Part shown: one piece after another, positions 54,623 through 62,030 of the stretch | Position numbering within the stretch: the stretch's first letter is position 1 | Layout of the letters: each line of letters starts with the position of its first letter | Assembly (NCBI GenBank): GCA_011959805.1 | Contig: BLMC01000008.1 | Span: forward strand, 1-64,000 | Length of the DNA stretch: 64,000 nt | Direction: 5' to 3' | From: Lachnospiraceae bacterium | Lineage (GTDB): Bacteria; Bacillota; Clostridia; Lachnospirales; Lachnospiraceae | Notes under the pieces: generated by a model | The model's input: only the letters and a program-made list of their open reading frames with translations | Told to the model about the DNA's origin: nothing | Database searches by the model: none | Program-made: the position numbers and the translations under genes

Positions 54623-57600
54623 TTATTCTTCTGGTTTGATAGGAACATATTCTACACTACTACTGTGATTAAATGGAAGCGTAATTATCCCGCTCCCCTC
54701 TGTAGCCTCCTCAATCCCCTGATGCATTAATGCTATTTTACCGCAACTATCCAGCAGAAAATAATGCCTAGATGTCCATGTATGGTCTTTCTGAAGCCGA
54801 AGTTCTGTGATAACATATCCCAATGTATCGGCATGCCCCAAAAATCCAGGGACATATGTCTTTAAAAATACAACTGGCGTCTTTTCATTCTGAAAAGTAA
54901 TTATATTGCATCCACTAATGGCATCTACAGCAATCTTTTCTCCAGAAGTTTTATTTTGTATCTCATTTTTCAATTCAACCTGATTTTGGTCATATAGTAA
55001 AGTTAGTGCATCCATCATAATTGTGGCTACAGTCTGACACGATTCCCCTTCTCCAATCTGAATCAAAAGTAGTGGTTCCTTTTCCTCTGGTTTAACATAA
55101 GTGCGAAAAATAGAAAATCCGTTTTCTTCTCTATAACCATCTGGCAATGGAATCTGTTCACCTGTTTTTGTATTTGTCACTTTTAACGCATATCCTCCAT
55201 CACCACCATTATATTTTAAATCCATTAATTCAATTTGCTCCTCTATGCCATCCCCATCCAAGTCAAGTTTTTGTGGAAAGCCCGCATTAAACGCAAATTC
55301 ATGGTGATTTGGGAAAATCGCTTCAAGCTGTTTCGCATCTTTCTGCGCAATTTCTCCCACACTTTGACTCGTAATCTCATATGGGACAATAGAATCTATA
55401 TCTGAAGCCTTTGCATTTTCTGTGCTTGGAACCCAGATACCATCTGTTCCATAAGGCTGTATCATCTGGATCGTTACCGAACTTCCATCCTCATAAAAAT
55501 CAAATGTCACAGTACAGTTGGAACTATCTGTATTAGATTTTGTCACACGCGTTCCAACTTTATTGGGATTGTTCAATAGATTCAATAGATAAATCGCTGC
55601 GGAATCTGGTTCAAACAACTTTTTATACCAATCGTTGGTTCGATTCTCTTTTGCATTTCTATTGAGAGCTTCTCCCGCTCCATTAAAGGAATAATAATCC
55701 ATCATTGTACCCGTAATACCCTCTGGATAGGCACGATTAAATTCTTCCGCAATACAGATTGCATTCATAAATTCTATTGTCTCTGATACAATAATACCTT
55801 TCTCCCCTTCCATTTCAAAGGTGAGAAATTCACGCCATACAGTCACATGTGGGTCAGATGACCATGCATAATACAATATTTCTGCGGAATGTTCTGTCAT
55901 GCTCACAATGCGATAATTGCGTGCAGTCGCATTATCTTCATTCTCTCCTCCCCAAGGCCACGGACTCGACCAGCCAAACGATACACTTTCTTCCTCATTA
56001 TCAAACGTTTGACTTAACAGCTCTCTTTCCAAAAGATGCGCCTGCACCTGATTACTGGCAAATTTTAGAATAGTCTTCGTATCACGGTTACAAAATGCTT
56101 GTGCCCACTGCTCAATCATTTCTCTTGCATTTATTGTGGACTCTTGTTTATACATGCTAGGCACTAGCGCTTCAAGTGTTGTTTCTACTCCTTTCAAGCG
56201 CTCAATAGTTGCTTTCCAATTTTGCTGTAATTGTTTTTCTTCTTTTGAGAAGGCCTGATTATCTAATGTTTCAAGTTGTTTTTGCAATATATTTTTTTCT
56301 GTCAAAATCTGTTTTTGCATTGCTTCCACATCTGTTATATTTTTCTGAAATTCCTGATTTGTTATTGTAGTGTCTTGGCGCAAATTATTGGAAATATTTT
56401 GTGTCAAAACATCTGCTTCACGCAAAAGTCTTAGTGCGTCTGTTTTCACAAAAATAGAACCGTCTATCATGAAATTATCTACATTTTGTTTTGAATCAGT
56501 CAAGAGGATTTCAGACGAATTTTTAGCATCAAATAACAAAGTACCATAATCTGTAGTAATAAATTGATAGTGATACTTTTGGTCTTCTGTAACTGCAATC
56601 AGTCGATTACCTTCAATCTCGTAATTTCCATAGGATAAATAAGAACTAAGCGCATCGTAAGAAAATGTAAATTTCCCGTTTTGGGATACTTTTAAACTTG
56701 GGATACTTTTATTTTCCTTCTGTTCATTCGACGGCAAAAAAAGACAATAATCCCCATCTATTGTGATGATTGTTTCTGCAAATTCTGTTTTATCTGTTTT
56801 CTTCTGTGTCATAAAACACACTGGAACAATCATACATACCAATATTCCTACCACCAAAATCCAAAAGGTAGGTTTTTTATAATGCAGCACATTTTTCACG
56901 CGCTCTTTGACACTAACTTCCCCAAAAGCAATTGGACATGCTGCAATCATGCAGCGATTGACTGCGCTGTTGAGAAGTGCTTGAGAATATGCCTTTTTAT
57001 GTTCCACACCAAGTTCACGGATAACACACTCATCACAAATCAACTCAATGTCCTTACAGAGTATAATATAGGCAATCCACACACAAGGATTAAACCAATA
57101 AATTGATAGAAGCACAAATCCAATAGGTTTTATTAAATAATCTTTTCTCTTTCTATGTGTCAATTCATGTCGAATCACATAGGGAAGTTCCTCGTTGGAA
57201 ATACTGTTTGGAATATAAATACGCGGAAAAATAACCCCAAATAAAAATGGACTTTCAATCGCATCACTTCGATAAATTTTTACAACGTTCTTTCCTTTGT
57301 ACCCATTATCTAGTACAATTTCTACTGGCACAGACAGTTTGACACGGCTTCTAAGACGCAACCAGCTAAACAACATATAACCAAACATCAATATCATACC
57401 GCCAAGCCAAAATCTCGTCCATATTTCCACTCTAGTAATTGGTTTATGTTTGTGATTCTCTTGCATAGGCGTATTTTCATATGGAATTGATGAATTATTT
57501 GATTGCTGTTTTTCTAACATGGTTAAATTTATATCGGGCTGCACTGTTTGGTAAATATAGTTCTCTGCCATTTGTGTATTTGGAATCAAACTAAATATAG

Positions 57601-57766
57601 ATTCAACTGAAAATGGAACCACCAAACGGATTCCAACCAACAGCCACAAGAAACTCCGCATAGATTTTGGTGCTTTTCGCAACAGAAATCGCACCAGTAA
57701 AACTGCTAAAATAAGATAACTTGCTGAGCTACTCATATGAAAAATATTGATAAATAGTTTCTCCAT
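54623..57766 (-). CDS. BlaR1/MecR1-type M56 metalloprotease with large extracellular region
   Basis: Residues 1-330 hold four membrane segments and an M56 peptidase with the zinc motif HELTH near residue 200. M56 proteases of this kind cleave a BlaI-type repressor when they sense a signal. The region after the last membrane helix is about 700 residues long and lacks the SxxK penicillin-binding sensor of BlaR1. It contains beta-like segments and a calcium-type DLDGDGIEE motif. The signal sensed is therefore unlikely to be a beta-lactam bound in the BlaR1 way. It starts 33 bases after blaI. Confidence 0.9.
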   Translation of the reverse strand: MEKLFINIFHMSSSASYLILAVLLVRFLLRKAPKSMRSFLWLLVGIRLVVPFSVESIFSLIPNTQMAENYIYQTVQPDINLTMLEKQQSNNSSIPYENTPMQENHKHKPITRVEIWTRFWLGGMILMFGYMLFSWLRLRSRVKLSVPVEIVLDNGYKGKNVVKIYRSDAIESPFLFGVIFPRIYIPNSISNEELPYVIRHELTHRKRKDYLIKPIGFVLLSIYWFNPCVWIAYIILCKDIELICDECVIRELGVEHKKAYSQALLNSAVNRCMIAACPIAFGEVSVKERVKNVLHYKKPTFWILVVGILVCMIVPVCFMTQKKTDKTEFAETIITIDGDYCLFLPSNEQKENKSIPSLKVSQNGKFTFSYDALSSYLSYGNYEIEGNRLIAVTEDQKYHYQFITTDYGTLLFDAKNSSEILLTDSKQNVDNFMIDGSIFVKTDALRLLREADVLTQNISNNLRQDTTITNQEFQKNITDVEAMQKQILTEKNILQKQLETLDNQAFSKEEKQLQQNWKATIERLKGVETTLEALVPSMYKQESTINAREMIEQWAQAFCNRDTKTILKFASNQVQAHLLERELLSQTFDNEEESVSFGWSSPWPWGGENEDNATARNYRIVSMTEHSAEILYYAWSSDPHVTVWREFLTFEMEGEKGIIVSETIEFMNAICIAEEFNRAYPEGITGTMMDYYSFNGAGEALNRNAKENRTNDWYKKLFEPDSAAIYLLNLLNNPNKVGTRVTKSNTDSSNCTVTFDFYEDGSSVTIQMIQPYGTDGIWVPSTENAKASDIDSIVPYEITSQSVGEIAQKDAKQLEAIFPNHHEFAFNAGFPQKLDLDGDGIEEQIELMDLKYNGGDGGYALKVTNTKTGEQIPLPDGYREENGFSIFRTYVKPEEKEPLLLIQIGEGESCQTVATIMMDALTLLYDQNQVELKNEIQNKTSGEKIAVDAISGCNIITFQNEKTPVVFLKTYVPGFLGHADTLGYVITELRLQKDHTWTSRHYFLLDSCGKIALMHQGIEEATEGSGIITLPFNHSSSVEYVPIKPEE

Positions 57767-57799
57767 CGCTCACCCTCCATGCTACTATTCCACTCTGTT

Positions 57800-58159
57800 C
57801 TAATCCTTATAATTGTCAATAATCTTCTGAATTTCATCAATTTCTTGTCTGGACAAATTCTTTTTTCGTGTAAATGCCGCAATAAAACTAGGAAGTGACC
57901 CTGAAAACGTTCGTTCGACAATCTCTGTACTCTCTGCTGACTGTGCATCTTCTCTGGAAACCAGCGAAGTCACGATTGCATCTTCGGATTTAATCACACC
58001 GCGCTCAGAAAGTCTTCGTATCACAGTGTATGTTGTAGACTTTTTCCACTCTAACTTTTCTCTACATAATCGAACCAATTCACTGCTTGTCACTGGCTCA
58101 TTCTCCCATAAAATCTCACAAAAACGGTATTCACTCTCAAATATTTTTGGCACTTCCAT
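57800..58159 (-). CDS. blaI: BlaI/MecI/CopY family transcriptional repressor
   Basis: The 119-residue protein has the winged-helix N-terminal domain (SSELVRLCREKLEWKKSTTYTVIRRLSERGVIKSE) and a C-terminal dimerisation part that the M56 protease would cleave. It lies directly upstream of the M56 gene and has a near-palindromic operator overlapping its own promoter, which supports autoregulation. GGAGAG precedes the ATG. Confidence 0.93.
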   Translation of the reverse strand: MEVPKIFESEYRFCEILWENEPVTSSELVRLCREKLEWKKSTTYTVIRRLSERGVIKSEDAIVTSLVSREDAQSAESTEIVERTFSGSLPSFIAAFTRKKNLSRQEIDEIQKIIDNYKD

Positions 58160-59526: not shown

Positions 59527-61428
59527 CTACTCGTCATATTGTAAAATCTTTTCTGTATACTTTCGCTCCATATCATGTTTTATTTTTCGGTTCTCCACAG
59601 ACTCAAAAATAATCGAGAAATCATAATCTGCCGGATACAATTGTTCTGCTGCCACATGAAGTTTGACACGCTTATGGTTAATCCAGATTTTTTTGTCTGG
59701 CAGCTGTACACGCAAAACACCTTTCTCATTAATAGATTCGCACACAATACCAATTTTCTGATCTGGAAATATCATCACACTATCTCCAAGATGATACTTT
59801 GTACTAAGGTCTGTTTTTGGACTAGGCTTTTTTTGTTTTGAAATCTTATATGTATTTTGCTTCCAAATAGTGTTCTCCTCGCCGTGAAACTGATAATTTT
59901 CTACGGCTGTCTCACCGTAAGCTGCCTTGACAGCCGTCCGCAACATATTTTTTGGCATACCCAGTCTGCCAGCAATATAAAATGCACAGCTCTCCCCAGC
60001 CTCTCCGATAACCATTTGATAAGTTGGCTTTAAAGTCTCTTTGTCAAAAGTCATTCTCGCATTAATAATATCTTGTGTTTTGTCCGCATATTCTTTGACC
60101 TCGGGATAATGTGTTGTAACAAGGAATAAACAATCACTTTTGCGAAGCTCCTCCAATATTGCAACAGCGATCCCCATACCCTCTGTTGGGTCAGTGCCAG
60201 AACCCATCTCGTCCAGAATTACAAGACTATCGTGGTTGACTTCGCGCAATACTTCCAGCACATTTTTAATGTGTGCGGAAAATGTGGAAAGATTCTCCGC
60301 GATATCTTGGCCATCACCAATATCGCACAAATAACTACTATTCATACAAATATCAGCTTCTTTACAAGCAACGTGGAGTCCACACTGCGCCATAAAACAA
60401 CTAAGCATGACGGTCTTAATTGCCACTGTTTTTCCGCCGGTATTTGGTCCTGTAATAATGATTCCTCTTGCCTGCTTACCAATTTCAAATTGCAGCGGAA
60501 CATTTATTGCTCTATCCATTAATGGGTGTCTTGCATCTTTTAAGATAATGCGGCGTTCTGTATTGATAGTCGGTTCTACAGCATCCATATCCAAACTAAG
60601 TTTTCCTTTTGAAAAGATAAAATCCAACTTTTCCATAACACGAATATTTTCATTCATTAATAGAACAGACTCCGCAACCATTGCGGTTAGTGTATACAAA
60701 ATACGATATACTTCGTTTTCCTCACTGATGCGCAACAACTGTAATTCTTCATAATATTTTGCAACGCTAACTGGTTCAATAAAGAACGTGTTTCCTGTAG
60801 CAGACTTGTCAATCACTGTTCCTGATATCTTAAATTTATATTCTTTTTTCACAGGAACGCAAATTCTGCCGTTGCGTGTAGTGCAATAGCTGTCTGCCAT
60901 ACACTCTTTGTTTGTACGCATTAGTTGTTCTGCCTTCTGTTTCATCTGCTCTTGACAACGTATCATATCGGTCCTAATTTGTTTGAGTTCTTTGGACGCA
61001 TAATCATCAACCGCACCATTTCTAATCTGGCGACTAATCTCCTCTCGAAGCGTTTCCACTGCGTCAAGATTTTCCTCATAATAAGCAAGTGGGTTTTCGT
61101 ACTGTTTTCCTCTATTAAGATAATCCTTTAAGCGCCTGACAGCAACCAAAACTTTTTCCACCCGCTCTAATTGATATGGTATCAGACAATCACCTTTTTC
61201 AGCAATCGCTAAAATCTCTTTTGCTTCCGCTACATTCTGTAAAGGAGGGGTTCCAAGCTTCTCCAGCAAAATTTTACTGTTGGTCGTATCTCTAATTTGC
61301 TTTCTCAACTCACCTTCTGCCAGATAGCAAGACACTCCCGCAATTGCTTCCTTTGCGCAGTCTGTGACAGCAAGCGCTTTCCAATATTCCTTTATTTTGT
61401 CAAATTCAATTTGTTTTTCGATATTCAT
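59527..61428 (-). CDS. MutS2-like ATPase lacking the Smr domain
   Basis: The 633-residue protein has the MutS2 layout: N-terminal clamp and coiled-coil region (ELKQIRTDMIRCQEQMKQKAEQLMRT), core NGRICVPVKKEYKFKISGTVIDKSATGNTFFIEP, and the ABC-type ATPase with Walker A GPNTGGKTVAIKT, STFSAHIKN, Walker B LVILDEMGSGTDPTEG and THYPEVKEYA. A KOW-like segment (HLGDSVMIFPDQKIG) follows, but the protein ends without an Smr nuclease domain. MutS2 is linked to ribosome rescue and recombination control. I start at the ATG at 61428 after AAAGGA. It sits downstream of a leader-like region. Confidence 0.88.
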   Translation of the reverse strand: MNIEKQIEFDKIKEYWKALAVTDCAKEAIAGVSCYLAEGELRKQIRDTTNSKILLEKLGTPPLQNVAEAKEILAIAEKGDCLIPYQLERVEKVLVAVRRLKDYLNRGKQYENPLAYYEENLDAVETLREEISRQIRNGAVDDYASKELKQIRTDMIRCQEQMKQKAEQLMRTNKECMADSYCTTRNGRICVPVKKEYKFKISGTVIDKSATGNTFFIEPVSVAKYYEELQLLRISEENEVYRILYTLTAMVAESVLLMNENIRVMEKLDFIFSKGKLSLDMDAVEPTINTERRIILKDARHPLMDRAINVPLQFEIGKQARGIIITGPNTGGKTVAIKTVMLSCFMAQCGLHVACKEADICMNSSYLCDIGDGQDIAENLSTFSAHIKNVLEVLREVNHDSLVILDEMGSGTDPTEGMGIAVAILEELRKSDCLFLVTTHYPEVKEYADKTQDIINARMTFDKETLKPTYQMVIGEAGESCAFYIAGRLGMPKNMLRTAVKAAYGETAVENYQFHGEENTIWKQNTYKISKQKKPSPKTDLSTKYHLGDSVMIFPDQKIGIVCESINEKGVLRVQLPDKKIWINHKRVKLHVAAEQLYPADYDFSIIFESVENRKIKHDMERKYTEKILQYDE

Positions 61429-61503
61429 TTCTTTTTTCCTTTCTATAAAATTCTGCGAAATGCGCAGCATAACACATTCTATTATTTACCTTACAACGCA
61501 AAA

Positions 61504-61546
61504 AAGACCATAGTCACCCGCCTGAACGTGTCTATACTATGGTCTT
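61504..61546 (-). terminator. Terminator T2 upstream of the MutS2-like gene
   Basis: Perfect 11-base arms AAGACCATAGT/ACTATGGTCTT enclose a 21-base loop, followed on the minus strand by a T-tract (TTTTTT). It lies 76 bases before the MutS2-like ATG, so it could act as an attenuator. Confidence 0.8.
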
Positions 61547-61570
61547 CTCTCTTGATGAAACAAAAAGCAA

Positions 61571-61664
61571 ATGCACAATCGAATAAGGCAGATTTATCTT
61601 CCTTACTCTATATTAGGCGTTTGTCAGCTTCTGCTGATATTTTTCCTTTGGACGCCCGTGTGCA
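61571..61664 (+). repeat. Structured interspersed repeat, copy R8
   Basis: This copy has a diverged hairpin I (GAATAAGG...CCTTACTC), no GCGCGCC linker (TATATTA instead), then hairpin II with outer arms GGCGT/ACGCC, inner TCAGC/GCTGA and the TTTTTCCTTT segment, and tail GTGTGCA. The tail is shared with copy R9, making a head-to-tail tandem. Confidence 0.8.
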
Positions 61665-61754
61665 ATCGAGTAGGGAAGTCTATCTTCCCCTACTCGCGCG
61701 CCGGACGCGGGCAGCATTTGCTGCTTATTTCCTCTCCGCGTCCGTGTGCATAAA
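61658..61754 (+). repeat. Structured interspersed repeat, copy R9 (best preserved)
   Basis: Hairpin I is GAGTAGGGAAG...CTTCCCCTACTC, then GCGCGCC, then hairpin II with outer arms GGACGCGG/CCGCGTCC and inner GCAGCA/TGCTGC followed by TTATTTCCTCT, then GTGTGCATAAAA. It is the cleanest copy and can serve as the model. Its tail joins terminator T1. Confidence 0.85.
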
Positions 61755-61780
61755 AAAACATGACCATACAGCCATGTTTT
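61752..61780 (-). terminator. Terminator T1
   Basis: AAAACATG/CATGTTTT arms with a 10-base loop are followed on the minus strand by a run of Ts that runs into the tail of repeat R9. It lies about 130 bases after the leader ORF. Confidence 0.75.
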
Positions 61781-61907
61781 AATGATTCAAAAATATATAC
61801 CATCATATAAAACAATTGTAAGGCGAAAACGTCAATAGCATTCGCTATCGACAATGGGCAGACTTTTAGCGCAAACATAAATAAGGCCAAAAATCACCCT
61901 GCAATAT

Positions 61908-61946
61908 TTACTTTGCAATTTTCTCCATTACAATTAAATTTAACAT
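61908..61946 (-). CDS. Candidate leader peptide (12 residues)
   Basis: An ATG preceded by a strong GGAGGAG site opens the short frame MLNLIVMEKIAK and a TAA. It is too short to be a usual protein. With a strong promoter upstream and terminators downstream it has the layout of a regulatory leader peptide. The peptide sequence does not match a leader I know. Confidence 0.45.
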   Translation of the reverse strand: MLNLIVMEKIAK

Positions 61947-62001
61947 GCAAACTCCTCCATAAAAGATAATATAACCAGTTATTTGTCAACTGTTCCTAAT
62001 T

Positions 62002-62030
62002 ATCATACGTGCAAAAAAGCTTATTGTCAA
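62002..62030 (-). promoter_or_regulatory. Strong promoter upstream of the leader peptide
   Basis: On the minus strand TTGACA (62025-62030) and TATGAT (62002-62007) are separated by 17 bases. A second TTGACA lies about 35 bases downstream but lacks a -10 at proper spacing. Confidence 0.75.

Follow-up and report, generated by a model that had tools for sequence, protein, structure and literature searches.

What controls the transcription of a gene that lies behind two terminators? In the window, a 64,000-nucleotide stretch of a Lachnospiraceae bacterium contig (BLMC01000008.1), a gene for a 633-aa MutS2-like protein is found on the minus strand (59527..61428, start ATG at 61428), and the features described upstream of it are on that strand as well. 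The region in front of the gene holds a conserved leader, a promoter, terminators, and covarying P4, P1, P2, P3 and antiterminator pairings. We consider it likely that this locus is a ribosome-mediated transcription attenuator of an Smr-less MutS2 paralogue, itself a putative translation-stress or antibiotic-response factor. Expression of the gene is probably triggered by disturbed protein synthesis, as is that of several antibiotic-resistance genes.

A promoter, a leader ORF and two terminators precede the gene

A sigma-A-type promoter, TTGACA-N17-TATGAT (62002..62030), matches the consensus at 11 of 12 positions and has the top score in the region, as expected from the near-consensus promoter described in the initial annotation. 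The strong ribosome binding site and 12-codon ORF of that description are also present: GGAGG occurs just 5′ of a leader, MLNLIVMEKIAK, that runs from ATG to TAA at 61908..61946. Two terminators, likewise proposed earlier, follow before the MutS2-like start, namely T1 (61751..61780, with hairpin and U-run at about 61780-61755) and T2 (AAGACCAUAGU...ACUAUGGUCUUUUUU, 61500..61546, with hairpin and U-run at about 61546-61504). Both were identified by direct reading and T1 also by folding; a generic terminator scanner missed them, the U-run probably having been counted partly in the stem. T2-type second terminators are present in relatives.

The initial annotation had also pointed to two repeats between T1 and T2. 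The sequence is indeed there (61560..61745, paired hairpins GAGTAGGGGAAG...CTTCCCTACTC), but it is a dispersed intergenic repeat, matched 48 times elsewhere in this genome, and for this reason we rejected it as a regulatory part of the switch. The repeat is an insertion between T1 and T2, outside the switch. A BlaI/BlaR1-like pair, whose BlaR1-like protein is fused to a long extracellular region, lies downstream in the same orientation as the MutS2-like gene (54623-58159). Such a pair also lies downstream in two loci of relatives (L003 and L004).

The leader is conserved and has a coding signature

An exact-peptide pattern search of 397 genomes returned only the genome under study, the pattern being too strict, and the comparison turned instead to the DNA upstream of genes for homologous proteins. 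MutS2-like homologues with E < 1e-100 were found by protein search in 82 of the 397 Lachnospiraceae genomes. Five other Lachnospiraceae contigs carry the 39-nt leader without a single nucleotide change, always 5′ of the same gene, and so the leader is not a chance ORF; the upstream neighbours differ among these five contigs. More broadly, one leader family of 6-14 codons, with the consensus ML[SINRT][VIL][VI]V-ME..A[KN]*, is found 5′ of ~50 MutS2-like loci down to ~46% protein identity, with a promoter just 5′ and terminators 3′ of the leader. Conservation of the leader thus extends to relatives with the gene, a point on which the earlier proposal depended. A terminator occurs in the expected interval at 37/45 homologous loci (2% of shuffled sequences), and a TTGAC-N-TAnnnT promoter occurs at 36/45 (0.9 expected).

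These data bear on the simplest alternative, in which T1 and T2 are constitutive terminators that end upstream transcription, the ORF is fortuitous and the gene is transcribed from a promoter of its own. An ABC transporter gene does lie upstream of the attenuator on the same strand, and a promoter scan of the region between T2 and the gene, where the initial annotation had held that a separate promoter would contradict its reading, found a single promoter-like match that overlaps T2. That match is weak (9/12), and the total promoter-like count in this region is near chance. Against this alternative, the promoter lies 5′ of both terminators here and in those 36 relatives, the leader is kept where upstream neighbours differ, and the leader pairings covary (see below). 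We therefore regard constitutive termination as extremely improbable.

The substitution pattern of the leader is that of a coding sequence. Its length changes in frame, with indels in threes, and its Leu and Val codons vary synonymously. The 47 copies (44 distinct) that were aligned with the first RNA model all begin the leader with ATG or TTG at the position set by the model; every one of the 47 also keeps an in-frame stop and a Shine-Dalgarno sequence before the start. Frame 0 of the leader has the highest synonymous share of substitutions and the mildest replacements. From the in-frame length changes, the synonymous variation, the kept start and stop codons and the coding-frame substitution pattern we conclude that the leader is most likely translated.

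The leader codons pair within a four-way junction

A consensus fold of 16 sequences with RNAalifold gave, unprompted, a four-way junction in which a conserved strand just 5′ of T1, CGCCUUACAAU..., is the pairing partner of the leader codons (helix P4); this helix encloses the hairpins P1, P2 and P3. The leader codons thus double as the 5′ strand of P4, the anti-antiterminator, and their partner, the anti-leader strand UUUUCGCCUUACAAUUGUUUUAUAUGA (61803..61829), is its 3′ strand. P1 (UUGCAA/UUGCAG, 61899..61919) surrounds the leader stop codon, which is held in its loop; P2 (GGG ... AGUCUGCCC, 61856..61899) is supported by the consensus fold and by covariation; and covariation is strongest at P3 (GUCGAUAGC/GCUAUUGAC, 61831..61852). 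The initial annotation had seen a stem-loop after the leader, and this structure is present, but it actually consists of three hairpins within the larger junction. The antiterminator (61774..61813) is formed by pairing between GUUUUAUAUGAU (61813-61802) and AUCAUUAAAACA, the T1 5′ arm being part of the latter. Just 3′ of T2 we also noted GUUGUAAGG (61488-61500), which is complementary to the anti-leader CCUUACAA.

Across the 44 distinct sequences, changes on both sides were found at 29/32 pairs. The covariation score was 0.415 in an alignment that had been fitted to the structure, compared with 0.191 for shuffled sequences (0/500) and a maximum of 0.06 with slid partners. Own-versus-swapped pairing tests need no alignment, and their controls were null. 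In these tests the duplex between a leader and its own pre-T1 strand was better than that of swapped loci (z −4.8, 0/5000 permutations), as was the pairing between the strand after the anti-leader and its own T1 5′ arm (z −3.4, 0/5000), relatedness being not fully corrected in either case. The antiterminator strand showed no own-pair excess with T2 in the permutation test, and we rejected a pairing to T2 accordingly. The leader, anti-leader, antiterminator and terminator pairings are mutually exclusive, as expected for ribosome-mediated attenuation.

Four-way junctions occur in riboswitches, and the junction could instead be an aptamer that binds a ligand or a protein, the short ORF being secondary or serving only for tuning. 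The junction is conserved and has conserved bases such as those of AGUCUGCCC, as an aptamer would. However, the kept start and in-frame stop in 47/47 aligned matches, the swap of ATG and TTG, the coding-frame substitutions and the indels in threes all speak for a translated leader, and both the short-leader group and distant loci retain the leader:anti-leader pairing without the same junction. Rfam searches with the element gave no match to a curated model. It would thus seem quite unlikely that a binding RNA is the sensor here.

Early stalling is predicted to favour readthrough

In equilibrium folding with the leader masked, T1 was kept and was favoured by >10 kcal/mol; equilibrium energies alone do not reveal a switch. 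Since T1 always wins at equilibrium, antitermination must be kinetic. Equilibrium masking was replaced by a nascent-RNA model, in which the transcript ends in the T1 loop and a ribosome is placed at leader positions. In the window, the modelled sequestration of the T1 5′ arm was 0.14 with the leader free and 0.20 with the ribosome on the stop codon; it was 0.68 and 0.67 when the ribosome stood at codons 5 and 8, respectively. The mean over 40 loci rose from 0.24 free to 0.43 stalled (p 4e-4) and returned to 0.27 at the stop. By these model probabilities early stalling, unlike completed translation, favours readthrough. Together with the mutually exclusive pairings, the permutation tests and the covariation, the nascent-RNA model supports the initial annotation's comparison of this layout with translation-sensing attenuators.

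The following mechanism would be consistent with these results. If the leader carries no ribosome, or one that has reached its stop codon, codons 1-9 would pair with the anti-leader to form P4 around P1-P3; P4 would then occupy the antiterminator strand, T1 would form and transcription would end. A ribosome stalled within the first ~8 codons would block P4, and the freed strand would pair with the T1 5′ arm. With this arm paired away, T1 should fail and transcription would read through into the MutS2-like gene, T2 possibly acting as a second lock. We infer that ribosomes stall on the leader, that a ribosome-targeting antibiotic induces the gene and that the protein splits ribosomes.

The closest precedent regulates a paralogue of another ribosome-splitting factor

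The closest precedent is rli80-hflXr of Listeria monocytogenes, whose attenuator is antibiotic-induced (PMC6310831). Both systems have a short leader ORF overlapping an anti-antiterminator, followed by an antiterminator and a terminator, and in rli80-hflXr the controlled gene is likewise a paralogue of a ribosome-splitting factor (PMC6310831). They differ in that the factor is the GTPase HflX there and a MutS2 ATPase here, and in that the leader is 14 aa with RLR there and MLxVxVME... here (PMC6310831). The present element also has a four-way junction and tandem terminators, and its induction is a prediction. Its leader peptide has no RLR-type motif, and no named inducer can be deduced from the leader sequence. 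The attenuators of bmrCD, vmlR and mef/msr(D) similarly place a leader peptide and a conditional terminator over drug-response genes (PMC4191407, PMC9226507, PMC4335068), and ABC exporters are also found under the present leader. Their leader sequences are unrelated, however, and their target set is another one: here, exporters, GNATs and the short MutS2 all stand under one related leader. The initial annotation knew of no described attenuator for this gene, and we found no published attenuator for MutS2 in the open-access PMC literature searched.

The short MutS2 is a distinct paralogue without an Smr domain

The MutS2-like assignment is confirmed with one correction, which is that the 633-aa protein is an Smr-less relative distinct from canonical MutS2. 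It has the MutS2 core/lever and a MutS-type ATPase (TIGR01069, 537 bits, residues 16-517), and its fold matches that of MutS2/RqcU of Bacillus subtilis (PDB 7qv3; PMC10897456) with 34% identity and a TM of 0.72-0.77. It shares the core/lever and ATPase fold with RqcU but lacks the long coiled-coil region of the latter, the short form being ~630-650 aa, and no match to an Smr domain was found in the 633 residues. Structure prediction places a five-strand beta-barrel at the C-terminus (residues 550-592), which is probably KOW-like; its sequence similarity to KOW was not significant (74/1000 shuffles). Complete full-length homologues are 622-651 aa long. Separately, this genome encodes a canonical MutS2 of 802 aa, which has no copy of the element, and 6/7 canonical mutS2 genes examined had no attenuator close by, whereas the short form has one upstream. 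The short forms, from Lachnospiraceae, Paenibacillus, Cytobacillus, Acetoanaerobium and contigs labelled Enterococcus or Listeria phage DNA, make up one clade separate from canonical MutS2 (support 0.70).

B. subtilis cells become more sensitive to erythromycin when they lose MutS2 or its ATPase, and changes to Smr or KOW have modest effects only (PMC10897456). Since the latter are mild compared with ATPase loss, an Smr-less form could plausibly still work. By analogy with HflXr and HflX, we infer that the gene product is a translation-stress or antibiotic-response factor.

Distant short MutS2 genes also have leaders and terminators

Six short-MutS2 loci outside Lachnospiraceae, in Paenibacillus, Cytobacillus, Acetoanaerobium and the contigs labelled Enterococcus and Listeria phage DNA, have a tiny leader (MLGVVLN, MSVNVLN, MTTGVLN, MSVIVLL, MSVVGI or MSVAGI) with one or more terminators behind it, and 5/6 have a TTGAC-type promoter. 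The match to an anti-leader is clearly beyond shuffles at three of them, marginal at one and not significant at two. Given a leader and a terminator at these distant genes, the architecture seems older than the family Lachnospiraceae. Phage and viral searches gave short-MutS2 matches only in unannotated phage-labelled contigs that resemble host DNA; these are GenBank OR846605, OR846885 and PQ520363 (loci L157, L158 and L159), which seem to be bacterial chromosomal DNA carrying the short MutS2.

The element also precedes exporters, acetyltransferases and a methyltransferase

When the 397 Lachnospiraceae genomes were searched with a covariance model, 53 elements came up, spread over 47 genomes, and 46 of these genomes also have the MutS2-like gene (Fisher p 2e−36). 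About 36 of the 82 MutS2-like genomes have no model match, though some of these have short leaders, and the short-leader group keeps the leader:anti-leader pairing. In a set of 391 genomes from across the class, matches were confined to two genomes, both of them Lachnospiraceae. The MutS2-like gene lies within 1 kb on the same strand of 38 elements. Other elements are 5′ of a three-gene ABC-2 exporter (an ATPase and two PF06182 permeases), with or without a MutS2-like gene behind; the nearest curated family to the exporter ATPase is the daunorubicin-resistance ATPase DrrA, at a score below the cut-off. Still others precede a GNAT acetyltransferase, alone or with a MutS2-like gene, and one precedes a SAM methyltransferase and then a MutS2-like gene. 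Judged from these assignments, the set looks like a drug-response group.

Several individual loci were observed in this search space. The same leader attenuator is 5′ of the three-gene exporter with no MutS2-like gene at L121, L123, L124 and L142, and a related leader is 5′ of GNAT acetyltransferases of two different families at L122:980-1764, L144:425-1485 and L128. At L143:412-2873 the exporter ATPase behind the leader is cut off at ~112 aa, and an unrelated ORF of 510 aa comes next; this copy is probably interrupted. At L147:390-1677 the leader is separated from the MutS2-like gene by a sequence that resembles a group II intron or what is left of one.

The identity of the controlled genes also bears on what stalls the ribosome. 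Slow decoding of Leu, Val and Ile codons, or a general amino acid shortage, could cause a stall and readthrough, and the anatomy of such a starvation attenuator would be identical; indeed ~5/12 leader residues are branched-chain. Yet the targets are MutS2-like, ABC-2 exporter, GNAT and methyltransferase genes rather than biosynthetic genes as in ilv/leu, and the Val codons vary freely, with no run of a single codon. Starvation sensing is thus an unlikely explanation, though less remote than an aptamer or constitutive termination.

Implications for the Lachnospiraceae

More tentatively, and with slightly less than even confidence, we hypothesize that the short MutS2 is an ancient Firmicute paralogue that acts as an inducible antibiotic-response or resistance factor, splitting drug-stalled ribosomes without the Smr collision sensor. 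It would be switched on by a leader peptide with the core M-(L)-S-V-V, through an attenuator common to exporters, acetyltransferases and a methyltransferase, and would represent a second, independent HflXr-like solution. About 20% of the Lachnospiraceae genomes sampled have the paralogue, as do some other Firmicutes. If true, the element would be a new RNA family and the gene a new target class for antibiotic-responsive attenuation, suggesting that a MutS2 paralogue serves as a dedicated translation-stress or resistance factor. Concrete tests would be of drug stalling on MLSVV-type leaders and of ribosome splitting by the short MutS2. Through the common leader, exporters and acetyltransferases of gut bacteria that are so far uncharacterised would also become candidates for resistance genes.
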